Shown here one piece after another: positions 44,308 through 57,013 of a stretch of 64,000 bases of DNA. The number at the start of each line of letters is the position of its first letter. Position 1 is the first letter of the stretch. Source of the DNA: Dioscorea cayenensis subsp. rotundata (lineage: Eukaryota > Streptophyta > Magnoliopsida > Dioscoreales > Dioscoreaceae); contig NC_052487.1 of NCBI RefSeq assembly GCF_009730915.1, forward strand, positions 4,594,649-4,658,648. The letters are read 5' to 3'. The notes under the pieces were generated by a model. It did no database searches. It saw only the letters and a program-made list of their open reading frames with translations, and was not told the origin of the DNA. A program made the position numbers and the translations under genes.

Positions 44308-45013
44308 TGGAAATTGCCAAAAAAACACTCTAAGTTTGTAATGTTGTCAAAAACACCCCGTTAATTTTGCAATCCCTAAAAACCCCTTCCTTTTAAACTC
44401 TATATTTTTCAAACCCCCAAAGCATGTAACGGATGTCAACGGAGTGATTTTTAAATTTTATGGACGAAAATGCCCTTACATGGGAAGTCGTGACTGCAGC
44501 CATTTCGGCGGTTTGAGAGGAAGTGGGTGGTTTTCTGTAGGGTAACCCCAAGAGACGAATTTACTGGAGCCGTTTACTTGTTTTTTCTCAACTCGCGTCT
44601 TTAGCTTTTTCCATTTCAAGTCGTCTCCGAAGTTGTCTCCGAGTTTTCTCTCTAGCAGCCCTCAGTAATTCTGACTTTTTCCCTTTCCACGGTATCTCGA
44701 AGGAGAAGTCCACGCAAGTAGTTGGCATTTCATCGGTTTTGCAATCTAAGGTATTGAGTATTGTTTTATGTTAACTATTCATTACTAAAGAAAGATTTTT
44801 CGGTTTTGTTTTGTGCTCTTGTTTTTGTTGGAAGATATTGAAGTCTGCAGGGGGATTTCTCGGCTGGGGTTTTGTTAGTTTGCAGGGCAATTTCTTGGCT
44901 AGGGTTTTGTTTTGCATTTTGGTCTTTATACACTATCGAAATAGTTTTTTCGATTGTTATGATTTGTGTAATATTTATAATGTACATTTCCCCTTTCATT
45001 TGATATGGTTGCA

Positions 45014-45165
45014 GTTTTACAAATGAGGTTTACGTTTAAGAAATGAGATGTTACAGTTTAAATTTTGTTGTCTCTGTTTAAGTATTGTTATCTATGTTTA
45101 ACAATTGATATCTCTGTTTAAGAACTGAAGGTTACCGTTTAAAACCTTATATTTCCGCTTAAACA
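45014..45165 (+). repeat. 20-nt periodic GTTTAA array, 5'UTR intron of ULP1-like gene
   Basis: GTTTAA-type motifs start at 45014, 45034, 45056, 45076, 45096, 45116, 45137 and 45157: steps of 20-22 nt. Spacers share a faint consensus such as ATTGTTATCTCT. The motif reads GTTTAA on the gene's sense strand. The intron probably runs from the GT at about 44751 to the AG at 45206. Confidence 0.85.
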
Positions 45166-46036
45166 TTTGTGAATACTGCATGTTGAATGTGTTGTTATTG
45201 TCGCAGGCTTGTGCTTATGGCGGTCAACCTAGTTAATGGGCGATGCTATTTGACACCGGTAGTGGAGACCTTAGCTGAATTGAAAGATAACATGACCCCT
45301 CGACACTGGGAGATCATCCGAAGGACACCGTTTGCAGCATTCATTGAGCTGGAAGCTATATACCAAGAGAGGGCCCTTCTTGATTCGCTATTGCAAAGGT
45401 ACGATGGCCGCACCAATAAATTCAGGATCGGGGAAAGCCTGCTGAGTTTTAAGCCTCAAGATGTGGCCCTCGTTCTTGGTCAGTGTTGCGATGGCGACGC
45501 AGTCGTGTTTCAGAAGAAGAAAACCCGCTCAGCGTTCGAAGGGAGGTATTTATCAAAAACCTACGAGAGACACAGAGACTCCATCAAGAGCACTTTTGTG
45601 CAACTTGTTCGACAGAGGGGAGAAGAAGATAATTTTGTCAAACTCCTGATGGTGTACCTCATGGGTACAGTCCTCTTCCCAAATACATCATGCTCGGTTC
45701 TGAACTGAATCGTTGATTATGTCGATGATCTACCCGCCATGGGGCGATATGCATGGGCGCAGGCGATACACAAGTGGCTTATGGAGGACATTCTACAAGC
45801 AGCCGCTCGAGTGCAAGATAGATGCGCCAGGAAGAAGACCAACACAGGGTATATTAAGGGTTGCTCGGTCGCGCTTAATGTCTGGTTTTACAAGCTGACC
45901 GGAATGGGAAAGAAAGTCCGTTTCGGCAAGATCCCAAGGATGCTGTGCTACGGTGAAAGTACTTACCGGAAGCAAGCGACGGTAGAAACCAGCTTGTCAT
46001 CGCTCGAAGGAAAAGAGGTAATACATCATGGACAAT

Positions 46037-46205
46037 GTTTAACAGAAGTCTTTAATGTTTAAACATATTATTTAGCGTTTAACTTTATTATTTATAGTTT
46101 AAAATTTATTCATAAAGGTTTAAATATTTTGTTCTCCGTTTAAATATATTGTATAATGTTTAAATATATAAAAACTCTGTTTAAATATAGTTTTTATAGT
46201 TTAAA
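46037..46205 (+). repeat. 20-nt periodic GTTTAA array, ULP1-like gene intron
   Basis: Nine consecutive GTTTAA motifs start at 46037, 46057, 46077, 46097, 46118, 46138, 46158, 46179 and 46199 (steps 20,20,20,21,20,20,21,20). They fill nearly the whole intron between the donor at 46018 and the acceptor at about 46246. Confidence 0.95.
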
Positions 46206-46399
46206 ATGAATGATTTCGCTGAAATTGTTTGGTTTACATATGTTAGTTTCCTGAGCTGGTTCCGGCGAATGTTGAAGAAGAAATATTTATTGGGGCCAAC
46301 CGATGGATGGATGCTATTGCTCCGGAACCACTTGCTCAAAGGCAGGAGGAGAGGGCAGCCTCTATCTTGCGTGCTCGACGCCGTTCTCCTACTTCCAGC

Positions 46400-47117
46400 C
46401 AAGGTTGTCAGACCCGGCTCGGGCATTGACCCGGCCAAGCCAAGGGGTCAAGGGTCGATGGGTTCAACCGGGTTAGACCGGGGTTGAACCGGGGTCAATA
46501 ATAAAATATTAAAAAAATATATTATAATAAGTAATAATAATAAAAAAATAATATAACCTATGTTTTAATAATAAAAAAGAATTAGTTAAATATAATATTT
46601 AAAATTTTAATTTTATATCTTTGTTTTATTTTTAAAACATCTCAAATTTGATTAAATTTAATATTTAAAATTTAATTCTTATATATATATATATATTGAT
46701 TTTTTAAAAATATAAATATTTAAAAAAACCTAATAATCTTATAATCCCTCATCAAGTCCCAAGATCACAAGTTCCAAACCCTTAAAAAGAATTAAAAACA
46801 AAAATTATGGGTACTCACAAAAATTAAAAAACGAGAAAATTCTCACTCTCTCTCACACAGCTCTCTCTCTCTCTCTCTCACACCGCCGCCGGATTCTTCT
46901 CTCTGTCTCACACACAGCCGCCGGATCCTTCTCTCTCTCTCACACACACAGCCACTGTCTCTCTCTCCTCTCTCTCTCACATATACGATCACGGATCCTT
47001 CTCTCTCTCGCCACTGGGTGATTCTTCCGGCTCATTGTGGTTATCTCTCTCTCACATACAAAGCCGCCGGATCCTTCTCTCTCTCTCTACCGCCAGGCTG
47101 ATTCTTCTGGCCGCCGT

Positions 47118-47201
<84 letters not shown>

Positions 47202-47410
47202 GCCACAGCCGGGATTCTTTTTTTTGTCACCGCCAGGTCAATGGTTTTCCGGGTAAAACCGGTGGGGTCACGGTTGAACCGGCCGGGTTATCGATTTAAC
47301 ACCGGGTCTCTTTACACCCGGTTCAAAGGGGCATGTTCGGACCGGCCGCATGGCCGGCTCGCGGTTTTTCCGGTTGAATCGGCCGGGCCGATCCGGGTCT
47401 GACAACCTTG
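46400..47410. mobile_element. Non-autonomous hAT element inside the ULP1-like exon
   Basis: Ends CAAGGTTGTCAGACCCGG and its inverted copy CCGGGTCTGACAACCTTG, flanked by CTTCCAGC (46392-46399) and ATTCCAGC (47411-47418), an 8-bp target duplication with one mismatch. Joining the flanks at one copy of the duplication keeps the exon's reading frame. The interior lacks a transposase; it has an AT-rich left half and CT/CA-rich right half with several copies of a GCCGCCGGATCCTTCTCTCT unit (46880-47080) and a (CA)n run (47150-47196). Confidence 0.85.
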
Positions 47411-48124
47411 ATTCCAGCCCACCACGCGCACGAATTCCTCGACGCCAGAGAAGCCCTTCCCTACCCCGCCAGATTGCAACAACCCCCTACCACGACAACG
47501 CAGCCCCGATTGTGGCAGCTCCCTCGACCATGGCAGCCCCTCCGACCGTGGCAGCCCCACCGGCGACATTAGGCGAAGATGTCACTGCAACTCTTATGCA
47601 GGCGTGCCAGATATTGATGACCGAGTTTCCTCGGCTTGTCGCTCGTGTTGAGGCACTGGAAGGACGTTCACAATTGACTGCGCCGTCTTTCAAAGAAATG
47701 AAGCACCCGGGACGAACGAGGCGTCAGAATTTGACGACGACGACATCATCGGGGTGACCATTCCAAGACGGCCACATTCGAAGAGACTTGCGAAAAAGAG
47801 GAGAACAATACTGCCTTTGTCTCCACAGCCGGCTGATGATGAAACAATAACAACACCATCAGCGGCTGATGCTGTTACTGAGTCTGTCACCGTTGATGAC
47901 ATGACCATGACAGTGGAGGACATCGTAGATGATGTGGCCATTGCCGCGGTTGATAAGATCGTTTACTCTCTTGTTAATGAAATCCCCGACCCGGTGGAAT
48001 CGGCTGCCGAGAGTGCGGCATCAAAGATGGACACAATCCCTGAAGAACAAAAACAAGCTAAGGGTGTGTCTCCCATTGATGTTGTTGCCGTGGCCACGGT
48101 TAAGAAGATCGTTGAATCCTTTGC

Positions 48125-48460
48125 CGTGGCCGTGGCCGTGGCCGACAGTACCGTATCGAAGCAGGACATAATCCCACAACAAGAAGAAGCATGTAAGGGT
48201 ATGTATGCGGTTGATGCTGTCATCGTCCCCGCATCGAAGCCAGACACAATCCCACAACAACAACAACCATGTAAGGATTTGTCTGCGGTTGATGCTGTCA
48301 TCGTCGTCCCCGCATCGAAGCCAGACACAATCCCACAACAACAACAACCATGTAAGGATGTGTCTGCGGTTGATGCTGTCGCCGTCATCCCCCATCGAAG
48401 CCAGATACAATCCCACAACAACAACAACCATGTTAGGATGTGTCTGCATGGTTGATCTCA
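48125..48460 (+). repeat. In-frame 78-81-bp tandem repeats in the ULP1-like gene
   Basis: The word GCGGTTGATGCTGTC recurs at 48207, 48285 and 48366, with a decayed copy at 48446. Each unit encodes about 26-27 residues such as PASKPDTIPQQQQPCKD; weaker units are seen from about 48010. It lengthens the linker between the N-terminal region and the protease domain. Confidence 0.9.
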
Positions 48461-48704
48461 TGCCGCCGTCCCCGCATCGAAGGAAGATGCTGCTGGTGGT
48501 GAACACCGTCAAGGCTCAATGACAGTACCCCATGAAGACCCCGACCGAGCAACGAGAGAGATGATCAAGGCCAATCAACAATGGGACGAGACGGCTCGGA
48601 AAGTCTTTGTTCCGAAGAAGAAAAAATGGGTTGGCCAATCGCGTCTTAATAAATACAAGCAGGAGTTGATGAGGATCTTCCTCAACTGCCCTATGGACAG
48701 GTAA

Positions 48705-48835
48705 GTTTAAAGTTTTTATGATAGTGTTTAAATGTTTATATATTTAACGTTTAATTATTTATAATATCATTTGAAAATTGATAATATTATTTAAATATTT
48801 ACAATATGGTCTAATTATATCTGTTATCGTTTAAC
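48705..48835 (+). repeat. 20-nt periodic GTTTAA array spanning a whole intron
   Basis: Motifs or degenerate forms at 48705, 48726, 48749, 48769, 48789, 48809 and 48829. The first overlaps the 5' splice site (GTAAGTTTAA at 48701) and the last abuts the 3' splice site (GTTTAACCTCAG, ending 48840). Confidence 0.8.
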
Positions 48836-49783
48836 CTCAGCACTGTCGTGTGGAAGAATGACGTTGTCAGCACCACACGGGACAAATTATACACTCTACT
48901 TGAGGGGAAGGAGATGGTCACAGATGATGTGATGGACGCTTTCGTATGCATAATACAAAAGTCGCTGAGCAAAGTGCCATATCCTTACAAGAAGCGCGCC
49001 TCCATCACAAGACCGCTAGCGCTGTTTATGTCAAAGCAGGACGACACACATGAAACCACTATGGCTATGATCGGAGATGCTGTGCGCAACTTGCATGAAG
49101 TTCAAATTGTCATCCTCCCGATAATCATGAATACCCACTTCCATGTCATCGTCCTTGACAATGTTAAACAAGAATACATGCATTATTCTTCATGTGTGGG
49201 GTACGATAAAGACGCGTTGGACATGGTAAGTTCTTTAATTATGTCCAATTAATAGTGTTTGGTATTTAATCGGTATTCCAATCTCAACTTGCATATCTTG
49301 ACAGCGGAATCTATTCGACAATTGTGTCGATATGGAGTTCGGCGAGTCGGCGACCGCAAAGTACCTACTCATTCACGACATGGAAACCCCACGCCAAAAA
49401 CAAGGAAGCATTGATTGCGCCGTCTATGTCATGCGGTTTATCGAGCAATTACTTTTCGATGAGAAGCTACGGCTACGGCAGACAGACGTTCCTTACCTGA
49501 GATTAAAGTATGTTTCCCGCATACTTAAGGAGGGGAGGGCAGCCGGCGTCCATGAGAAAGGGGGGTCGTCACAAGTGGGTTAAATTTTGTTTTCGAAGAA
49601 CAGGACTTGTATATGTCAATGTAAATTTTGTTTTCGAATGTAAACCTGGACAAATGCAATTCATTGTTTTTGTTTGAGAAGAACATGACTTGTATATCTC
49701 AATGTAAATTTTGTTTGTTTTTAATTGTAAATCAGGTTAAATTCCATTCAGTTTCATTTCATTATTTAATTTACAGTGTCATT

Positions 49784-49936
49784 GTTTACCTTTCAGTTTC
49801 ATTGTTTAAATTTACCAGCTATCGTTTAAATATCAGTGTGAAATATTTAAAAATTACAGTTTCTCTGTTTAGAATAACACTGTCTCTGTTTAAATAAATG
49901 CATTCACTGTAAAGAATAAGAGTTTATCTGTTTAAA
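49784..49936 (+). repeat. 20-nt periodic GTTTAA array downstream of the ULP1-like stop
   Basis: Motifs at 49784, 49804, 49824, 49845, about 49866, 49888, 49909 and 49930, in the sense direction of the ULP1-like gene and probably in its 3'UTR. Confidence 0.85.
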
Positions 49937-50551
49937 TATGAAAAGTTGCCACTCAATTCAGATTGTTTCTCTTTAGAAGTCAGCTTATTTACAATGCCTA
50001 GTAGGCGACAGTTTCATTACAATATCTACGATTGTGACCGGATCTATGGCAGAGGCTGCAATGTAACTCACGGACATCAAACGCTTGCGACTCAATCCTC
50101 TTTCGTCTAGGACGCCCAGGCTGCCTTCTCATCACAGGCGGTCGCAAACGAAGCTCACGATTTCCGTCTGAAGGCTTGTCATCGTTGGGTATGGGGAATA
50201 TAGCTTCCTTATACGCCAGTTTGTAATTGTCGACGGTGAAGTAGCCGCTAATAAATCGATGAACGTTGGTGTCTGTCTGTATTATTGCAGCGCAAGCATG
50301 TTTGCAAGGGATACCATAAACTTGTCACCTTCGACGTGAACAAGTTCTGATGGCAAGATCTACAGAGTTGCTGCACTGGTCGATCACTTCATAACGATCA
50401 TCGACACAACGACCAACACGAAGATTTCGGCTATCCTCGACAATTATCTCTACCTTCAAATGTATGTCTGGGCATAAGTAGGTCTCCCATTTGTTTGCTT
50501 GCTCACGCCGGTTACATAACATGCGCATCAACTTGAACCTTGCAAATAAGG

Positions 50552-50700
50552 TTAAACAAAGACAGTGATGGTTAAATAATTGGTAAACTGGTTTAAACAG
50601 TAGGGTAAATATTTAAAGGATTAAATTAATATTTAAAGTCAGACAATGTTAATTAAACAAATATGGAAGTTTTTAAAGGGTAACACTAAATGTTAAGTGT
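50552..50700 (-). repeat. 20-nt periodic GTTTAA array (minus strand), transposase intron 2
   Basis: On the plus strand TTAAAC-type motifs end at 50557, 50577, 50598, 50618, 50638, 50658, 50678 and about 50698. The sense strand of the transposase therefore reads GTTTAA, filling the intron between exons 2 and 3. Confidence 0.9.
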
Positions 50701-52004
50701 AAATCAACATTCGCAGACCTTATGGAGTCGACCATTTTCGTCACCGGTAAATGACGAGCTTCTTTGATCCAAGCATTGAACGACTCCGCGACATTTGAAT
50801 ACATCTCACCCCAATGATCACCTCTGAACAGATAATTCGACCAATGTGCCATATCCGATTTATTAATCAACCAGTGATGGGCTTCGGGTGATGTGGCCTG
50901 CAGTTCATTCACGGTATCATCGAATTCTTTAGCCGTGGATGCCCACGCAATGCGAAAGCATATAGACCTGCACTCTTCCCTCAATGCCTTCCCAAGTCTG
51001 ACATTGGCTTTCATAAAATTGGCCTCCAAATGTCGAAGACAGTATGCATGTGGCGAAGAAGGGAAGACTCTCGTAATTGCGTTCACAAGGCCCTTGGACC
51101 TGTCCGACACGAAGGTAATTATCTCATGATAATCTCCTTCCTCATATAAAGCATCGCCTAACTTGGATATGAACCAAGTCCAATTGGCGTCGGTCTCGTT
51201 GTCGACAATACCGAAGGCGACATGGAAAAAGCCATTGTTTCCATCTTTCCCTGTGGCACCCAGTAGAGTACCCCGATACTTTCCAAGGAGGTGGGTACCA
51301 ACGAGAAATAACAGTGGCCTGCAATCCCTCTTGAATCCCACAATACACGCGCTGAAAGAAAAGAATGCACGTTTAAAACGATCACCGCCTCTTTCCACGA
51401 TCGCAATGCTGCCGGGGTTTGTCTCAGCCACCTTATCCACATACATAAGGAACAAATCGTAGTTGGAGATGTCACTGCCGTCGAGGACCACCCGGGCATG
51501 CTCTTTTCCCAACCAAGCCTTCTTGTATGGTATGTGGACACCATGTTCCCGCAACATGTTCTTCTGAATGTCGATGGCCTTGTACAAGGGCCGGTCCTTG
51601 AGCTTCTGAATCACTCGTGCACTTACCCATTTTTAGGACGCTTTCGGATGTGACGCCGAACCTATTCCACCACCGCAAGTGTGTGACGGGTTCATTGTCT
51701 TGATTTTGAAAGTATTTTTATTATACTCTTTTGATGCATGAAGGCGCCAATGACAACCATCGGCAGCACATTCCATAGTCACCCGATGTTTTCGTTCTTT
51801 ATGAATTTGAAGTCAAAATTCTGTTTGATTGCAAAATTTCGAAGTACGTCCCTGAGATGTTCAATACCGTCAAAACATTGTCCGATATCCAACGACAGCA
51901 CTTCAGAATGATCTGACGAGGAAGGAAGACATCTCACACCGTCAGGGTCACCATGGGGTTGAACGGGAGCGCTCGCATAATCTGAATTCCTGCCAACACT
52001 TCAG

Positions 52005-52155
52005 TTAAATGAAAAGATCAATATTTTAAGCAGAGAATAGACTGTTTAAGTGATAAAGTAAACATGTAAACGTTAAATTAAATAATTAAACAGTGAACAA
52101 TTAACTTAAACTAATAGTACAAGATTTTAACCAGTGACTGACATACTTAAACAAT
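52005..52155 (-). repeat. 20-nt periodic GTTTAA array (minus strand), transposase intron 1
   Basis: On the plus strand TTAAAC-type motifs end at 52010, 52030, 52050, 52071, 52091, 52111, 52131 and 52152. They fill the intron between the N-terminal exon and the core exon. Confidence 0.92.
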
Positions 52156-52559
52156 AATGAACCTATACAACTGGATCAAATAAAAGAGAAAGAACTTATA
52201 ACGAGAAAAACTCATTTTCATTAGGATTCGACAATGGCACATTGTCTGTCTTGACAACAAGATCAACTACAGCGCATTTGAAGATGGAGTTCACGTGACA
52301 CATCCGCTGGAAGTCAACATCGTTTTCTATTGGACAAACCGTTTTATATCCATCTGGTGTGATAAACTTCACCCTAACAAGGGAAACTTCGAGACCCCAT
52401 CGCTCACATATCTCAGCTAACACCAACTCCCAAGAAGTCTGAGCCTTGAACATTAGCACTCTTCCCTCCACGTTGTATCTAGCAATACCACAAAAACTCT
52501 CCATAATATATCGGCCGAAAACCAAATCATACAAACCAAATGAAAAGAAGAACAAAAAG

Positions 52560-52601
52560 AAGAAGAAGAAGAAGAAGAAGAAGAAGAAGAAGAAGAAGAA
52601 G
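52560..52601. repeat. (GAA)n microsatellite upstream of the transposase
   Basis: About 14 GAA units about 55-100 bp upstream of the transposase ATG, probably in its leader. Lysine-rich and Phe-rich frames through it are not genes. Confidence 0.95.
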
Positions 52602-52799
52602 ATGTCAAGAACAAACAGCAATCAGAAAGACAAACAAAAAAGTGCACAGTTGTATGCATAAAGGTTAGACTAGATGTGATGTGATTGGGTGGCATTTTTC
52701 CCTCCATCCCAAGGGCAAAAAAGGAAATATATGTCACTGTTGCGAGGAAGCCATATTGTCATCGCTCGAAGGAAAGTTCTCACATTATCATGAGTCTCT

Positions 52800-52966
52800 G
52801 TTTAAACGTCAAGCTTTTTATGTTTAAACCGATACATATAGTGTTTAAACTAATGGTTAACTGTTTAAATAAATTCTATATCATTTAAATAATATGTAAA
52901 CCGTTTAAATATAGTGATTTACCTGTTTTAAAATATATGTTATTATTTAAATTGAATGTTTTCATT
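52800..52966 (+). repeat. 20-nt periodic GTTTAA array in the second MULE copy
   Basis: Motifs at 52800, 52822, 52843, 52863, 52883, 52903, 52925, 52945 and weakly 52966. They follow a ULP1-like exon end, as at 46037-46205, in the same orientation, but the sequence between motifs has drifted. Confidence 0.85.
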
Positions 52967-53645
52967 GACATCGCGTTGAAGAGTAAATCGATTATTGTTT
53001 AACATTTTGTTTTATTTAAACATCATAGGTACCTCCTGGGTTACTGTTTAAACATCTTTATGTATTTGCTTAAACACCGTTGTCACTGTTTAAAGAGTAA
53101 ATCGATTATTGTTTAACATTTGTTTTGTTTACAATGCCGTTTTTTGTTTCTCAAATTGTTTTTACTATGTCTGTGTTTAAATTTCATAAGTTATCACAAG
53201 TTGACACTCAAATAAGTTTGTTTGTTTAAAATATTTAAACGTTTACAATGGAGAATCTGATTAAATATCAAAAGTTCACACTCAAATAAGCTTGTTTCAT
53301 TTAAAATAAAACATTTACAACATTTACAACGTCTTCTCGGACCTCGGACACTCGCGAGTCGACCCTCGTTCGTCTATTAAGATTTCGGTTTGACTCACCA
53401 AGTATCTGTACATTCGAATGCTCACGACGGTTGCATAACATGCGCATCAACTTGAACCCGCATAACGTAGAACGCAACACGTTAAAAAAGGTTAAGCAAA
53501 CACATTCATAAAAACGTCTATTAATCAATGTGTCATGGTCTGACTTAAGCGAAGATCCTGAGAGTTAAACACAGAAAGTAATATTTGTACACTGACAAAA
53601 AATTCTTAAAGGGTAAGAACAATTCTCAAGTGATAAATATCAATT

Positions 53646-53907
53646 CTATCTTAAAGGATGTTTCATGATCTTCCTCCTCTAGAGAATCCTCCGCAATCAA
53701 TCAATAAGTGAAAACTTTCTTTTCTTGCCCAAGTCGAAATGCCCGCTTAATTGCTTGCCCGTCATCCACAGCTGGAGAATCCTCTGCATTTAGGCAATTA
53801 TGCGGGAATTTCGACTTGGGCAAGAAAAGATAGTTTAACTTGTTGCGTGATTACGGCTGATTGATTCTCAAGATGAGGAGGATCATGAGACATCCTTTAA
53901 GATAGAG
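53646..53907. repeat. Inverted repeat, ~110-bp arms
   Basis: Arms 53646-53754 and 53793-53907 pair imperfectly: CTATCTTAAAGGATG with CATCCTTTAAGATAG at the outer ends, and TTTCTTTTCTTGCCCAAGTC with GACTTGGGCAAGAAAAGA further in. The loop is about 38 bp. A transcript could form a long hairpin. Confidence 0.8.
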
Positions 53908-54277
53908 ATGATCTTCAAATTTTTGTCTGACTCCAGCGAATATCATACACAAGAAGCAGATGAGGAGGAGGAGGATGAGGACGACGAGGAGTGGTTGTCC
54001 ATGGGAAGGGTTCTTCCTTGTCATTTATGGTGTGAAGTCCACAAGCAGGTTGACACTTCATATCCGAGAAAAAAAGGAAACGCACAGTGGACCGAGATTG
54101 ACTGATCACAACGAACGAGTGTTCGGATATTTATGTTACCATGTACAAGAATTAATGCCGTCATTAATTCTTATGCACGGGATACCATAACCTTGCCACC
54201 TGCCACCTGCCACCTGCCAACACTTCAGTTCAAACGAAAAAGATCAATATTTTACGCAGAGACTTTGAGAATTTACA

Positions 54278-54381
54278 CGTTAATATGAATAGTTAAACAA
54301 GTAAAAATAAATTTAAACGGAAACGACAATTATTAAACAAATATGTAATATATTTAAACAGAGAATAGCAAAGAGTTAAAC
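54278..54381 (-). repeat. 20-nt periodic GTTTAA array (minus strand), second copy's transposase intron
   Basis: Plus-strand TTAAAC ends at 54298, 54318, 54338, 54359 and 54381, with a weak unit near 54278. It lies just downstream, in the gene direction, of the second copy's transposase exon 1, as in the first copy. Confidence 0.85.
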
Positions 54382-54633
54382 AGTATTTAAAATATACAAC
54401 TAGATAACCATAAACGAGAAGAACTTTACAACGAAATGAACTCGTTTTTAGTAGGATTTGACAATGGCACATCGTCTGTCTCGACAACAAGATCGACTAC
54501 AGCTCATTTGAAGATGGAGTGCACTTGACCAATCCAATGGAAATCAACTTCATTTTCTGTTGGAGAAACCGATTTATATATTTCGGGTATGATAAACTTC
54601 ACCTAGACTCGTTTCCTGAAACAGATTTACATC

Positions 54634-55226
54634 CAGGGGCGGAACCAAGGGGGGGCTAGCAGGGGCTGAAGCCCCCTCTCGGCCACGGAGAGAATACTTT
54701 TTAAGCAATATAAGATTTGATGGTTTTCGATTTTTCTATACTTAATTTCATCTAAAATACAATATTTGGACATATAAAAGTGTGGAATGTGGGTGTGCTT
54801 GTGTGATTAGTGGGTTTATCCATAAGACATGTGATCTTTTTTGACCCACCCAAGTTCAAATCCCACTTGGTGCATTGTTTTTACATTTTAATTTTTTAAC
54901 TTAAAAATTACTATTATTTCAAAATTTTAATAAAATAAATCTTATATAAAAATTTGAGAGGGATCAATTTTACCATATTTTAAAAAAATACAAATTTGAG
55001 ATGTATTCTTATTAGTTAAATTATTGAAAATCTCATATGTTTGCTATCGGTACTAACGAAATTTTAAATTATACTTAATATTTTTTTTAATATGTGTATT
55101 CAAATTTTGGTTATATTAGCACATTATTCTTCATTTTAAATAATTATTTTTTAAATCATTTTTTTATTTTTTTGTTTTGCCTTTAGGCTTCAGCCCCCCT
55201 ACCATTAAGTCCTGGTTCCGTCCCTG
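54634..55226. mobile_element. Non-autonomous hAT element with 8-bp target duplication
   Basis: 593 bp with ends CAGGGGCGGAACC and GGTTCCGTCCCTG, flanked by perfect TTTACATC copies (54626-54633 and 55227-55234). Just inside are GGGGCTGAAGCCCCC and GGCTTCAGCCCCCC blocks. It carries tRNA-promoter-like boxes (GTGATTAGTGGG near 54804 and AGTTCAAATCCCAC near 54856). No transposase. It interrupts the second MULE copy. Confidence 0.92.
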
Positions 55227-55624
55227 TTTACATCTATCATTACCACAAAAACCTTCCATAATAAACACCCGCAGAATGGTCAAAATGATAGCAACGAAGA
55301 GATTCTCATCGTATTATGAAACTGACAGAACTGAAGTCGAACAAACCAAATGAGGAGAAATGAGGAGAAGAACAAGATGTAATGCAACTTTTAGGCATTG
55401 TCTATCAGAAACCAAGCAGAAAGCCCTTGAAAAGGTTGGGCGTTTTTTTCCCACCATTTTCAAGGGCAAAAAAGGGATTTCACAACATGGACCCATTTGA
55501 AGTGAACGGTAGGGGGTAAAAGGGAAGTTAAACACTAACGGAAGGGCTGCCCGGGGTGTGTAAAAGTAGGAGGGGGTTTTTGGGATGTTTTGAAAATTAC
55601 GATGGGTGAACAATAATTTTCCCT

Positions 55625-56210
55625 AATAATAATAATAAGAATAATAGTAATAGCATATTCTCAAAATAAATGCCGTTAAAAAATATATAAATTTTTTTAA
55701 AAAATAAAAATTTTAAAATGTTTAAAAAGATAAAAAAAAAAGTTCATTTTTTGTAATTTTTTGAAAAAGAAGATTGTACATGAAAAAAATAGCTATTTTA
55801 GTATTTATAAAAATCCACTCATCACCTAAGTAATAACATAGTTTGATGTGATGTTTCGAACTAATATGAATGAATAAATTTCATATGAAGTTATTTTAAT
55901 AATTAAAAAAAGAGTTATATTGGAAGAAAAACCTTTATACAAATATAACTCTTTAATTGCACTACTCTATTCTCTCATGAGAAAATCCTTGATCTATTCC
56001 TTTTCTTTTTATTTCTAGCAGTTTATTTTGGAAAAGAAAAGAGGTTGCTTTTGGATTTGGTGTGCATACGATCTACTGGGAGTCTGGGATGCAACTTTTG
56101 CTCGATGCTAAAAGATCACGAATGATTAGTATAACATATTTGGCACACGATCCGTTATTAATTAAAATAAATAAAATAGGATTTATGTCAAATCAATGAG
56201 TTGATGTTAT
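55625..56210. other. AT-rich spacer, no gene seen
   Basis: Between the composite MULE and the next hAT copy. It starts in a (TAA)n run matching the one at the MULE's left end. No coding frame or RNA gene recognised. Confidence 0.6.
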
Positions 56211-57013
56211 CAAGGACAGAACCAGGACTCGATGATAATAGGGGCTGAAGCCTAAAGAAAAACCATAAAAAAAATAAAAAAAATAATCCAACAAAATAAT
56301 TATTTTAAATAAAAAATAATATGCTAACATAAAAAAAATTAAATACATATATTAAAATAACATAAAGTATAATTTAAAATTGTGTTATCTAAATATAAGA
56401 TATTTTTAATAACTCAATTAATAAGAATACATATCAAGTTTGTATATTTTTTTTAAAATATGGTAAAATCTATCCCTCTCACTATATATATATACATGAT
56501 TTTTTAAAAAAATTTTAAATTATTAAAATTTTTATATAAATTTTATTTAAAAATTTTTGTTAAAATTTGAAATCGTAATATTTTTAAAATAAAAAAATGG
56601 GATGTTAGTTTATATACGATTTTAAACTTTTTTTAAATTACTAAAAAATTTTATATAAATTTTATTTAAAAATTTATATCAAAATTTGAAATCATAATAT
56701 TTTTTAAAATAAAAAAAAGTACAAAATAATATATATATGAGATTTTTAAAATAAAAAAATGGGATGTAAAAACTAACACATGCATCAAAGAGGATTTGAA
56801 CCTGGTGGGTCAAAATCCCAAATCTTATAAAAAAGCCCACTAACCACTCCAGCACAAGGCTATTCTTTGCTTTTAGGTGCCCAAAAATTTTATTTAATAT
56901 TAATTTAAGTATAGAAAAATTGAAAACAATAAACCTTATGTGGCATGAAAGATAGTCTCCCAGCGCCGAGGGGGGGCTTCAGCCCCTGCTAGACCCCCTT
57001 GGTTCCGCCCCCG
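56211..57013. mobile_element. Second, older hAT copy of the same family
   Basis: Ends CAAGGACAGAACCAGG and CCTTGGTTCCGCCCCCG, with inner GGGGCTGAAGCC and GGGGGCTTCAGCCCC blocks as in 54634-55226. On the minus strand it has the same tRNA-like boxes (GAGTGGTTAGTGGGC and AGGTTCAAATCC, 56795-56875). Terminal repeats are more diverged and no clean 8-bp duplication is seen, so it is older. Confidence 0.75.

Follow-up and report, generated by a model that had tools for sequence, protein, structure and literature searches.

GTTTAA arrays with a 20-21-nt step in a yam MULE, probable DNA targets of a transposon-encoded VANC-like factor

Organization of the Element

The 64,000-nt stretch of the Dioscorea cayenensis subsp. 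rotundata genome analysed here (contig NC_052487.1, positions 4,594,649 to 4,658,648; hereafter, the window) contains a Mutator-like element (MULE) with two convergent genes, whose introns and other non-coding parts carry arrays of the word GTTTAA at steps of 20-21 nt (Table 1). The plus-strand gene has an N-terminus with a DUF1985/plant mobile domain (PMD), a repeat-rich middle part and a Ulp1 protease end, while the minus-strand gene encodes a MULE transposase (PF10551, 5.8e-19; PF00872, 3.2e-10; PF03108, 1.1e-7). The joined pair of Ulp1 exons matches Peptidase_C48 (3.4e-9, 37.3 bits, cut-off 20.7) and human SENP1 (2.3e-6). The DUF1985 exon of the window carries a stop and scores 17.5 bits, below the Pfam cut-off. 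In the sister copy L075, PMD reaches 55.4 bits (cut-off 34.9) and DUF1985 33.8 bits, just short of the cut-off of 35.1; DUF1985 matches beside 91% identical Ulp exons exceed the cut-off (e.g., C2064, C1127, and C19), and so do 127 of the 150 DUF1985 loci scored, from 455 candidates. The order, strand and splice-like borders of the DUF1985 and Ulp1 exons suggest that they share one transcript. A sequence search of the PDB with the DUF1985 exon (A1) gave no matches up to E 1.

Table 1. Features of the MULE and its arrays, in positions of the window.
Feature	Position	Strand	Remarks
Whole MULE	44309..55641		Degenerate ends, left GGAAATTGCC, right AATTTTCCC; inserted in TAA-repeat; right border set by eye
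GTTTAA array, leader intron 1	45034..45142	+	6 exact motifs; 0 of 60 shuffles
DUF1985/plant mobile domain exon	45207..46017	+	In-frame TGA; below both Pfam cut-offs in this copy
GTTTAA array, intron 2	46037..46204	+	9 exact motifs
81-nt tandem repeat in long exon, variable protein region	48151..48482	+	Tandem Repeats Finder (TRF)
GTTTAA array, intron 3	48705..48834	+	3 exact motifs in a row and decayed units
Ulp1-like protease exon, first part	48842..49225	+	Profile match of the exon pair
Short intron, array-free	49226..49305	+	GTTTAA in 0 of 41 distinct copies
Ulp1-like protease exon, C-terminal part	49306..49583	+	Profile match
GTTTAA array between convergent genes (3' flank)	49804..49935	+	Motif positions, copy alignment
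Transposase C-terminal exon	49998..50533	-	SWIM zinc finger match, below Pfam cut-off
Transposase intron with GTTTAA	50552..50658	-	Motif distances of 41 and 60 nt in this copy, of 20 and 40-41 nt in the copy consensus
MULE transposase exon	50711..52000	-	MULE and DBD_Tnp_Mut domains
Transposase intron with GTTTAA motifs	52086..52152	-	Motif positions, copy alignment
5' exon of transposase gene	52196..52500	-	Weak PB1 match below cut-off; borders approximate
Array upstream of transposase	52800..52908		Both orientations; partly copied protease-gene exon end and intron 2
Array in internally duplicated segment	54293..54381	-	5 exact motifs

Spacing, Abundance and Conservation of the Motif

Between positions 44400 and 55400, 28 same-strand pairs of GTTTAA lie 19-23 nt apart and the longest run comprises nine motifs, while 500 dinucleotide shuffles in 200-nt blocks gave 0.08 such pairs on average (at most 2) and no run longer than two, which excludes chance. 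No phased run was found in the rest of the 64-kb window. The original prediction, made from the sequence of the window, had pointed to nine motifs from 46037 to 46199; these are exact, as are six at 45034-45137 and five on the minus strand at 54293-54376. It had also counted five to nine motifs in a row in every stretch, which holds for these three, the only ones with at least five exact motifs; the others, however, hold two to four (plus strand: 48705, 3; 49804, 2; 52800, 4; 53088, 2; minus strand: 52086, 2; 52802, 3; 53048, 2), with decayed units in between. With exon borders set by us, GTTTAA occurs twice in 5.04 kb of exons, 60 times in 4.69 kb of non-coding DNA of the element, and 48 times in the remaining 52.7 kb of the window.

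Both primers of the yam sex marker sp16 (PMC5604175) have a single exact match each, on C11 at 1499867 (+) and 1500128 (-), pointing towards one another across 262 nt, which identifies the genome as that of D. rotundata (white Guinea yam), a monocot, or of a very close relative; the study assigns sp16 to pseudo-chromosome 11 and reports 20 as the basic chromosome number and 594 Mb for its version of the assembly. In the whole genome (584 Mb), we counted 17,303 overlapping triples of GTTTAA with a step of 18-24 nt (8463 + 8840), against 91 (47 + 44) for the reversed motif. At a wrong step of 28-34 nt, GTTTAA and the reversed control gave similar counts, 201 (101 + 100) and 194 (112 + 82), respectively. 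Among de-duplicated neighbour pairs within 60 nt in the loci read, 383 of 737 are spaced at 19-23 nt (mean 20.79); additional maxima lie at 40-42 and 58-60 nt. Two turns of B-DNA comprise about 21 nt. Tandem repeats of about 20 nt were detected by TRF.

As had been noticed in the window, the rest of each 20-mer has drifted, while the motif and its spacing persist: six positions are kept and the other 14 vary. In pooled alignments of 4 to 47 distinct sequences per stretch, not corrected for the tree, GTTTAA columns are more conserved than other columns with the same base (G,.932 vs.885; T,.980 vs.957; A,.980 vs.941); two of 231 sequences were dropped from the intron alignments, as their length was outside 0.6-1.6 of that in the window. 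The excess is clear in two of the six stretches taken singly, where the observed value was reached in 6 and 18 of 2000 random draws; a count with overlapping loci included gave a like outcome. This points to purifying selection on the motif.

Arrays Within and Outside Introns

According to the original prediction, the arrays are a feature of MULE introns. At least one GTTTAA is present in 3 of 4 distinct copies of intron 1, 5 of 5 distinct copies of intron 2, all 32 copies of intron 3 and all copies of the two transposase introns (30/30 and 34/34), as well as in all 47 copies of the 3' flank. However, the short intron of the Ulp1 gene (about 80 nt) lacks GTTTAA in all 41 distinct copies, and arrays also occur between the convergent genes, upstream of the transposase gene and in a short MULE described below; the arrays are not specifically an intron feature.

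The left end of the MULE was aligned in L069, L071, and L072. Genome-wide, the left-end word was found 575 times (298 + 277; reversed control 3 + 2) and the right-end word 222 times (114 + 108; reversed control 0). Among the rows compared, a left and a right end word on the same strand could be paired over at most 20 kb in 12 cases. Five pairs span 1.7-2.6 kb, corresponding to short elements, and three span 9.4-9.9 kb, corresponding to full-length ones; the remaining four (4.7, 8.5, 10.9, and 16.8 kb) include three alternatives at one place. A short MULE with both end words, the left tip reading N, is located at C1:24235-26945. It gave no convincing match to the six exon peptides of the window (best tblastn E 0.005 over 10 residues) and contains 27 forward and one reverse GTTTAA, 20-21 nt apart inside blocks; longer duplicated blocks are seen by eye. 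In the first 2.9 Mb of C1, all three left-end words are within 1.8 kb of an array; positions no more than 2.5 kb away from any of 49 array starts, hand-picked from roughly 100 rows listed, make up 4.4% of this sequence. The link between arrays and MULEs outside the copy loci is based on this short element and these three end words.

Within the window, the left part of the array upstream of the transposase gene is a diverged copy of a protease-gene segment made up of an exon end plus intron 2 (45985-46170 vs 52747-52937, 70%); as an exon end has been copied together with its array-bearing intron, this suggests that arrays spread inside the element through segment duplication. What had been taken for a second transposase copy is an internal duplication, with 51989-52373 matching 54213-54603 at 78%. 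Of four 10-kb copies compared for it, L070 and L071 align through the duplication to the limit of the sequence read, L069 does not align there, and L072 was read only to 54201.

Other insertions were also seen in these elements. In the window, a separate transposon at 46400-47411, with 23-nt terminal inverted repeats (TIRs; CAAGGTTGTCAGACCCGG...) and CT/CA microsatellites, interrupts the plus-strand long exon and is missing from all three 10-kb copies covering the site (L069, L071, and L072). A second inserted repeat, GGGGCGGAACCAAGGGGGGGCT...GGCTTCAGCCCCCC, occupies 54640-55225 near the right end of the MULE, and part of it (54943-55241) is found again in inverted orientation just outside the MULE, at 56195-56494. 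The short MULE on C1 contains an insertion with GC-rich ends (GGGGCAGGGCGGGGAATGGGATCCCC...) at C1:24400-25250.

Exchange of the Motif Among DUF1985 Loci

Intron 2 was compared in ten hand-picked DUF1985 genes. Five carry a GTTTAA array (the window, L069, L071, L072, and L075), three a TGTGTA array (L074, L077, and L078), and two neither (L073 and L076). The DUF1985 gene of L074 is 47% identical to that of the GTTTAA-type locus L075 across the same exon, and its intron 2 contains seven TGTGTA-type motifs at 20-21 nt; L077 and L078, of each of which 351 nt were read, contain six at the same step, and none of 60 shuffles equalled the array in any of the three. No GTTTAA array was found in L074, L077, or L078, and no TGTGTA array in L069-L072, L075, or the window. 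Such a change of the word at a constant step is what co-evolution of a protein and its target would give.

Genome-wide, triples of GTGTATA number 159, against 21 in the control, some of the listed ones looking like simple TA/GT repeats. Among 100 of the 159 triples listed, a same-strand GTGTATA array was found near a DUF1985 match in 6 of 88 cases. Five of these six arrays lie 365-440 nt downstream of the match, i.e., in intron 2, and one DUF1985 match (C14) also has two opposite-strand arrays 4-6 kb further on. The DUF1985 gene of L076 (C18:18452300-18455300), which has no 20-nt array, shows by eye a roughly 29-nt tandem repeat in its leader intron (positions 340-410); this locus may use targets of another step.

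Orientation of the Arrays

Strand counts were made in copies that descend from one another and are not independent. In 30 protease-gene loci, the window included, 222 array motifs are in the sense and none in the antisense orientation from -1500 to +1350 around the exon, and 30 antisense motifs lie farther downstream than +1350. In 30 transposase loci, again with the window, the sense to antisense ratios in the two introns are 28:2 and 34:0; upstream of the gene the orientation is mixed (82:144), nearly all motifs beyond +1300 following the protease-gene sense, and small remainders are 4:4 (-1000 to -750) and 0:2 (-150). The initial claim that the motif follows the sense strand in both genes stands for their introns, but not for the upstream stretch 52800-52868 of the window, which runs against the transposase; three motifs there form the palindrome GTTTAAAC, read on both strands.

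The GTGTATA family mirrors the rule. Of the neighbouring clusters up to 6 kb apart among the same 100 listed triples, all 10 on opposite strands converge and none diverge, and six share a strand; a family with this arrangement of genes and this strand rule would be expected to give such a picture. The sense bias had been advanced as an argument for selection or origin at the RNA level. The rule itself is real in introns, but an RNA-level signal does not necessarily follow from it, because plant introns need or favour a T-rich sense strand; a simple account is that both words meet this need better in one orientation. Coupling of the arrays to transcription would be a bolder account.

Interpretation and Alternative Explanations

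We consider it probable that the GTTTAA arrays are DNA targets of a transposon-encoded, VANC-like anti-silencing factor. The binder would likely be the plus-strand product with its DUF1985/plant mobile domain, repeat-rich middle and Ulp1 end. This protein would bind GTTTAA words about two helical turns apart, its molecules being aligned on one face of the DNA, and binding in introns, promoter and gene ends would clear the entire element of silencing marks; array-bearing non-autonomous copies would be released in trans. Sister families would have swapped protein and word together, from GTTTAA to TGTGTA, with the step retained. Of the three options named in the original prediction (tandem growth of one 20-mer, an intronic splicing signal, and a protein-binding array spaced by two helical turns), the last one fits best, given the mean spacing and the peaks near two- and threefold multiples of it, although minor off-step peaks at 8 (17 pairs), 32 (21 pairs), and 34 nt (27 pairs) do not fit.

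Besides these peaks, several points weigh against the anti-silencing interpretation. No array above shuffles was found in the leader intron of L074, nor in intron 2 of L073 and L076, two of the ten DUF1985 genes read; these ten are not a random sample. In the conservation test, four of the six stretches are not significant alone (143, 226, 243, and 483 of 2000 draws), and the copies compared share ancestry. An AlphaFold2 model of the DUF1985 exon (A1, 3 sequences) had a predicted local distance difference test score of 35.5 and no usable fold. The VANC papers, as far as they are covered here, give neither a 20-21-nt step nor a tie between array orientation and gene sense. Moreover, the binding, the identity of the binder and the effect on silencing are what we infer from direct observations of the arrays, their phase and location, the domain make-up, the motif exchange and the reduced variation of motif columns.

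The arrays could instead be internal or subterminal binding sites of the element's own transposase, serving transposition rather than anti-silencing. The transposase does have a DBD_Tnp_Mut domain, a short and apparently non-autonomous element with arrays needs only sites in cis, and maize MURA, a transposase, also induces hypomethylation (PMC10398659). However, introns of both genes contain arrays that are kilobases away from the ends, and the motif varies between families grouped by their DUF1985 gene; we regard this explanation as unlikely. Action in RNA, through intronic splicing enhancers or another transcript-level signal, would agree with the strict sense orientation in introns (222:0; 28:2; 34:0, in related and hence not independent copies) and with the convergent GTGTATA neighbours within 6 kb (10 of 10 among the triples listed). 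Yet, judged by position, the arrays are not confined to transcribed introns and exons, as splicing enhancers would be: they are found between genes, upstream of the transposase in both directions (82:144), and throughout much of a short element without a convincing gene. Moreover, an intron of the same gene is motif-free in 41 of 41 distinct copies, and the same-place introns of L073 and L076 manage without an array. These observations contradict the splicing-signal option, and we hold an RNA-level role in general to be very improbable.

Tandem growth of a 20-mer is a likely origin of the arrays, but leaves the conservation of motif columns and the combination of the same step with a different word unexplained. 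That the arrays are nothing else, i.e., functionless products of slippage with motif and step as relics, is in our opinion the least probable of the explanations considered. The 20-nt repeats detected by TRF, the longer duplicated blocks seen by eye in the C1 element and the four stretches without significant extra conservation of their own speak for it; against it, the six motif positions stay while the other 14 drift, pooled motif columns are less variable, in sister loci the corresponding intron has another word with an unchanged step, and the motif is nearly absent from exons. Returning to the anti-silencing interpretation, it has a further version, which we find doubtful: in a monocot VANC branch, the two-turn step would be fixed and the word would be an exchangeable key. 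The array would be read in the transcribed orientation, so that anti-silencing would be tied not just to bare DNA but also to the transcription, or the nascent RNA, of the two genes.

Comparison With Known Systems

VANC21, encoded by the Arabidopsis element VANDAL21/Hiun, is a DUF1985 protein that binds a short word and causes sequence-specific loss of methylation; its targets form dense tandem arrays of the same orientation in introns, intergenic and terminal non-coding DNA (PMC5735166). The original prediction knew of no description of such introns; same-orientation arrays in VANDAL introns and other non-coding DNA are in fact described there. VANC6 targets use other words, the motifs differing between families (YAGTATTAY vs AGTTGTCC/AGTTGTAC), and variable regions of VANC proteins often have peptide repeats (PMC5735166). 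Degenerate TIRs are a published trait of VANC-type elements. The yam element resembles VANC21/VANDAL21 in being a MULE with a DUF1985 protein, in having dense arrays of tandem, equally oriented motifs in its introns and elsewhere in non-coding DNA, in a variable protein region with repeats, and in a motif that differs by family. Unlike VANC21/VANDAL21, it has the words GTTTAA or TGTGTA(TA), a 20-21-nt step, an intron orientation that follows the gene sense, a monocot host and a protein with Ulp1, and it is known from sequence alone. The abstract of the primary paper on KIU, a Ulp1-bearing VANC described below (Sasaki 2022), reportedly ascribes specificity to the sequence, density and helical periodicity of the motif and counts non-autonomous VANDALs among the targets.

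VANC genes with a captured Ulp1 domain are known as KIU genes and confer motif-specific anti-silencing; the capture was dated to the separation of monocots and eudicots, the genes are strongly conserved in eudicots, and Ulp1-bearing MULEs were also described in grapevine, melon, and rice (PMC13317346). Like KIU (Kaonashi), the yam element combines a VANC-type protein with captured Ulp1 and a MULE without proper TIRs; unlike it, it belongs to a monocot, while anti-silencing has been described in Arabidopsis and eudicots (PMC13317346). Another parallel is PAC, a non-autonomous Arabidopsis element roughly 1 kb long whose two direct repeats may be VANC6 targets (PMC12312487); by description, the short yam element resembles it in carrying target-like repeats.

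The fusion with Ulp1 in a monocot is already known from rice MULEs (PMC13317346). No description of such arrays in a monocot was found in the literature searched, outside of which many journals lie; what seems new is the occurrence of the arrays in a monocot, the use of GTTTAA and TGTGTA(TA) as words, the 20-21-nt step across word families, the strand rule and the abundance. The 17,303 overlapping triples in 584 Mb suggest that transposon-encoded, sequence-specific anti-silencing is not limited to eudicots and is common in the genome of a monocot crop. A natural data set for finding which part of the protein reads which word is provided by the short elements with arrays, together with the helical step and the exchange of words, and the sense-strand rule is an additional oddity that can be tested.

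As in VANC-type elements, a MULE transposase, a DUF1985 protein and family-specific motifs are present in yam, together with dense same-orientation non-coding arrays, the exceptions being the two exon motifs and the mixed orientation upstream of the transposase; as in KIU genes, Ulp1 (Peptidase_C48) lies in the same predicted protein. The yam element very probably works like the VANC/KIU system and belongs to that kind.

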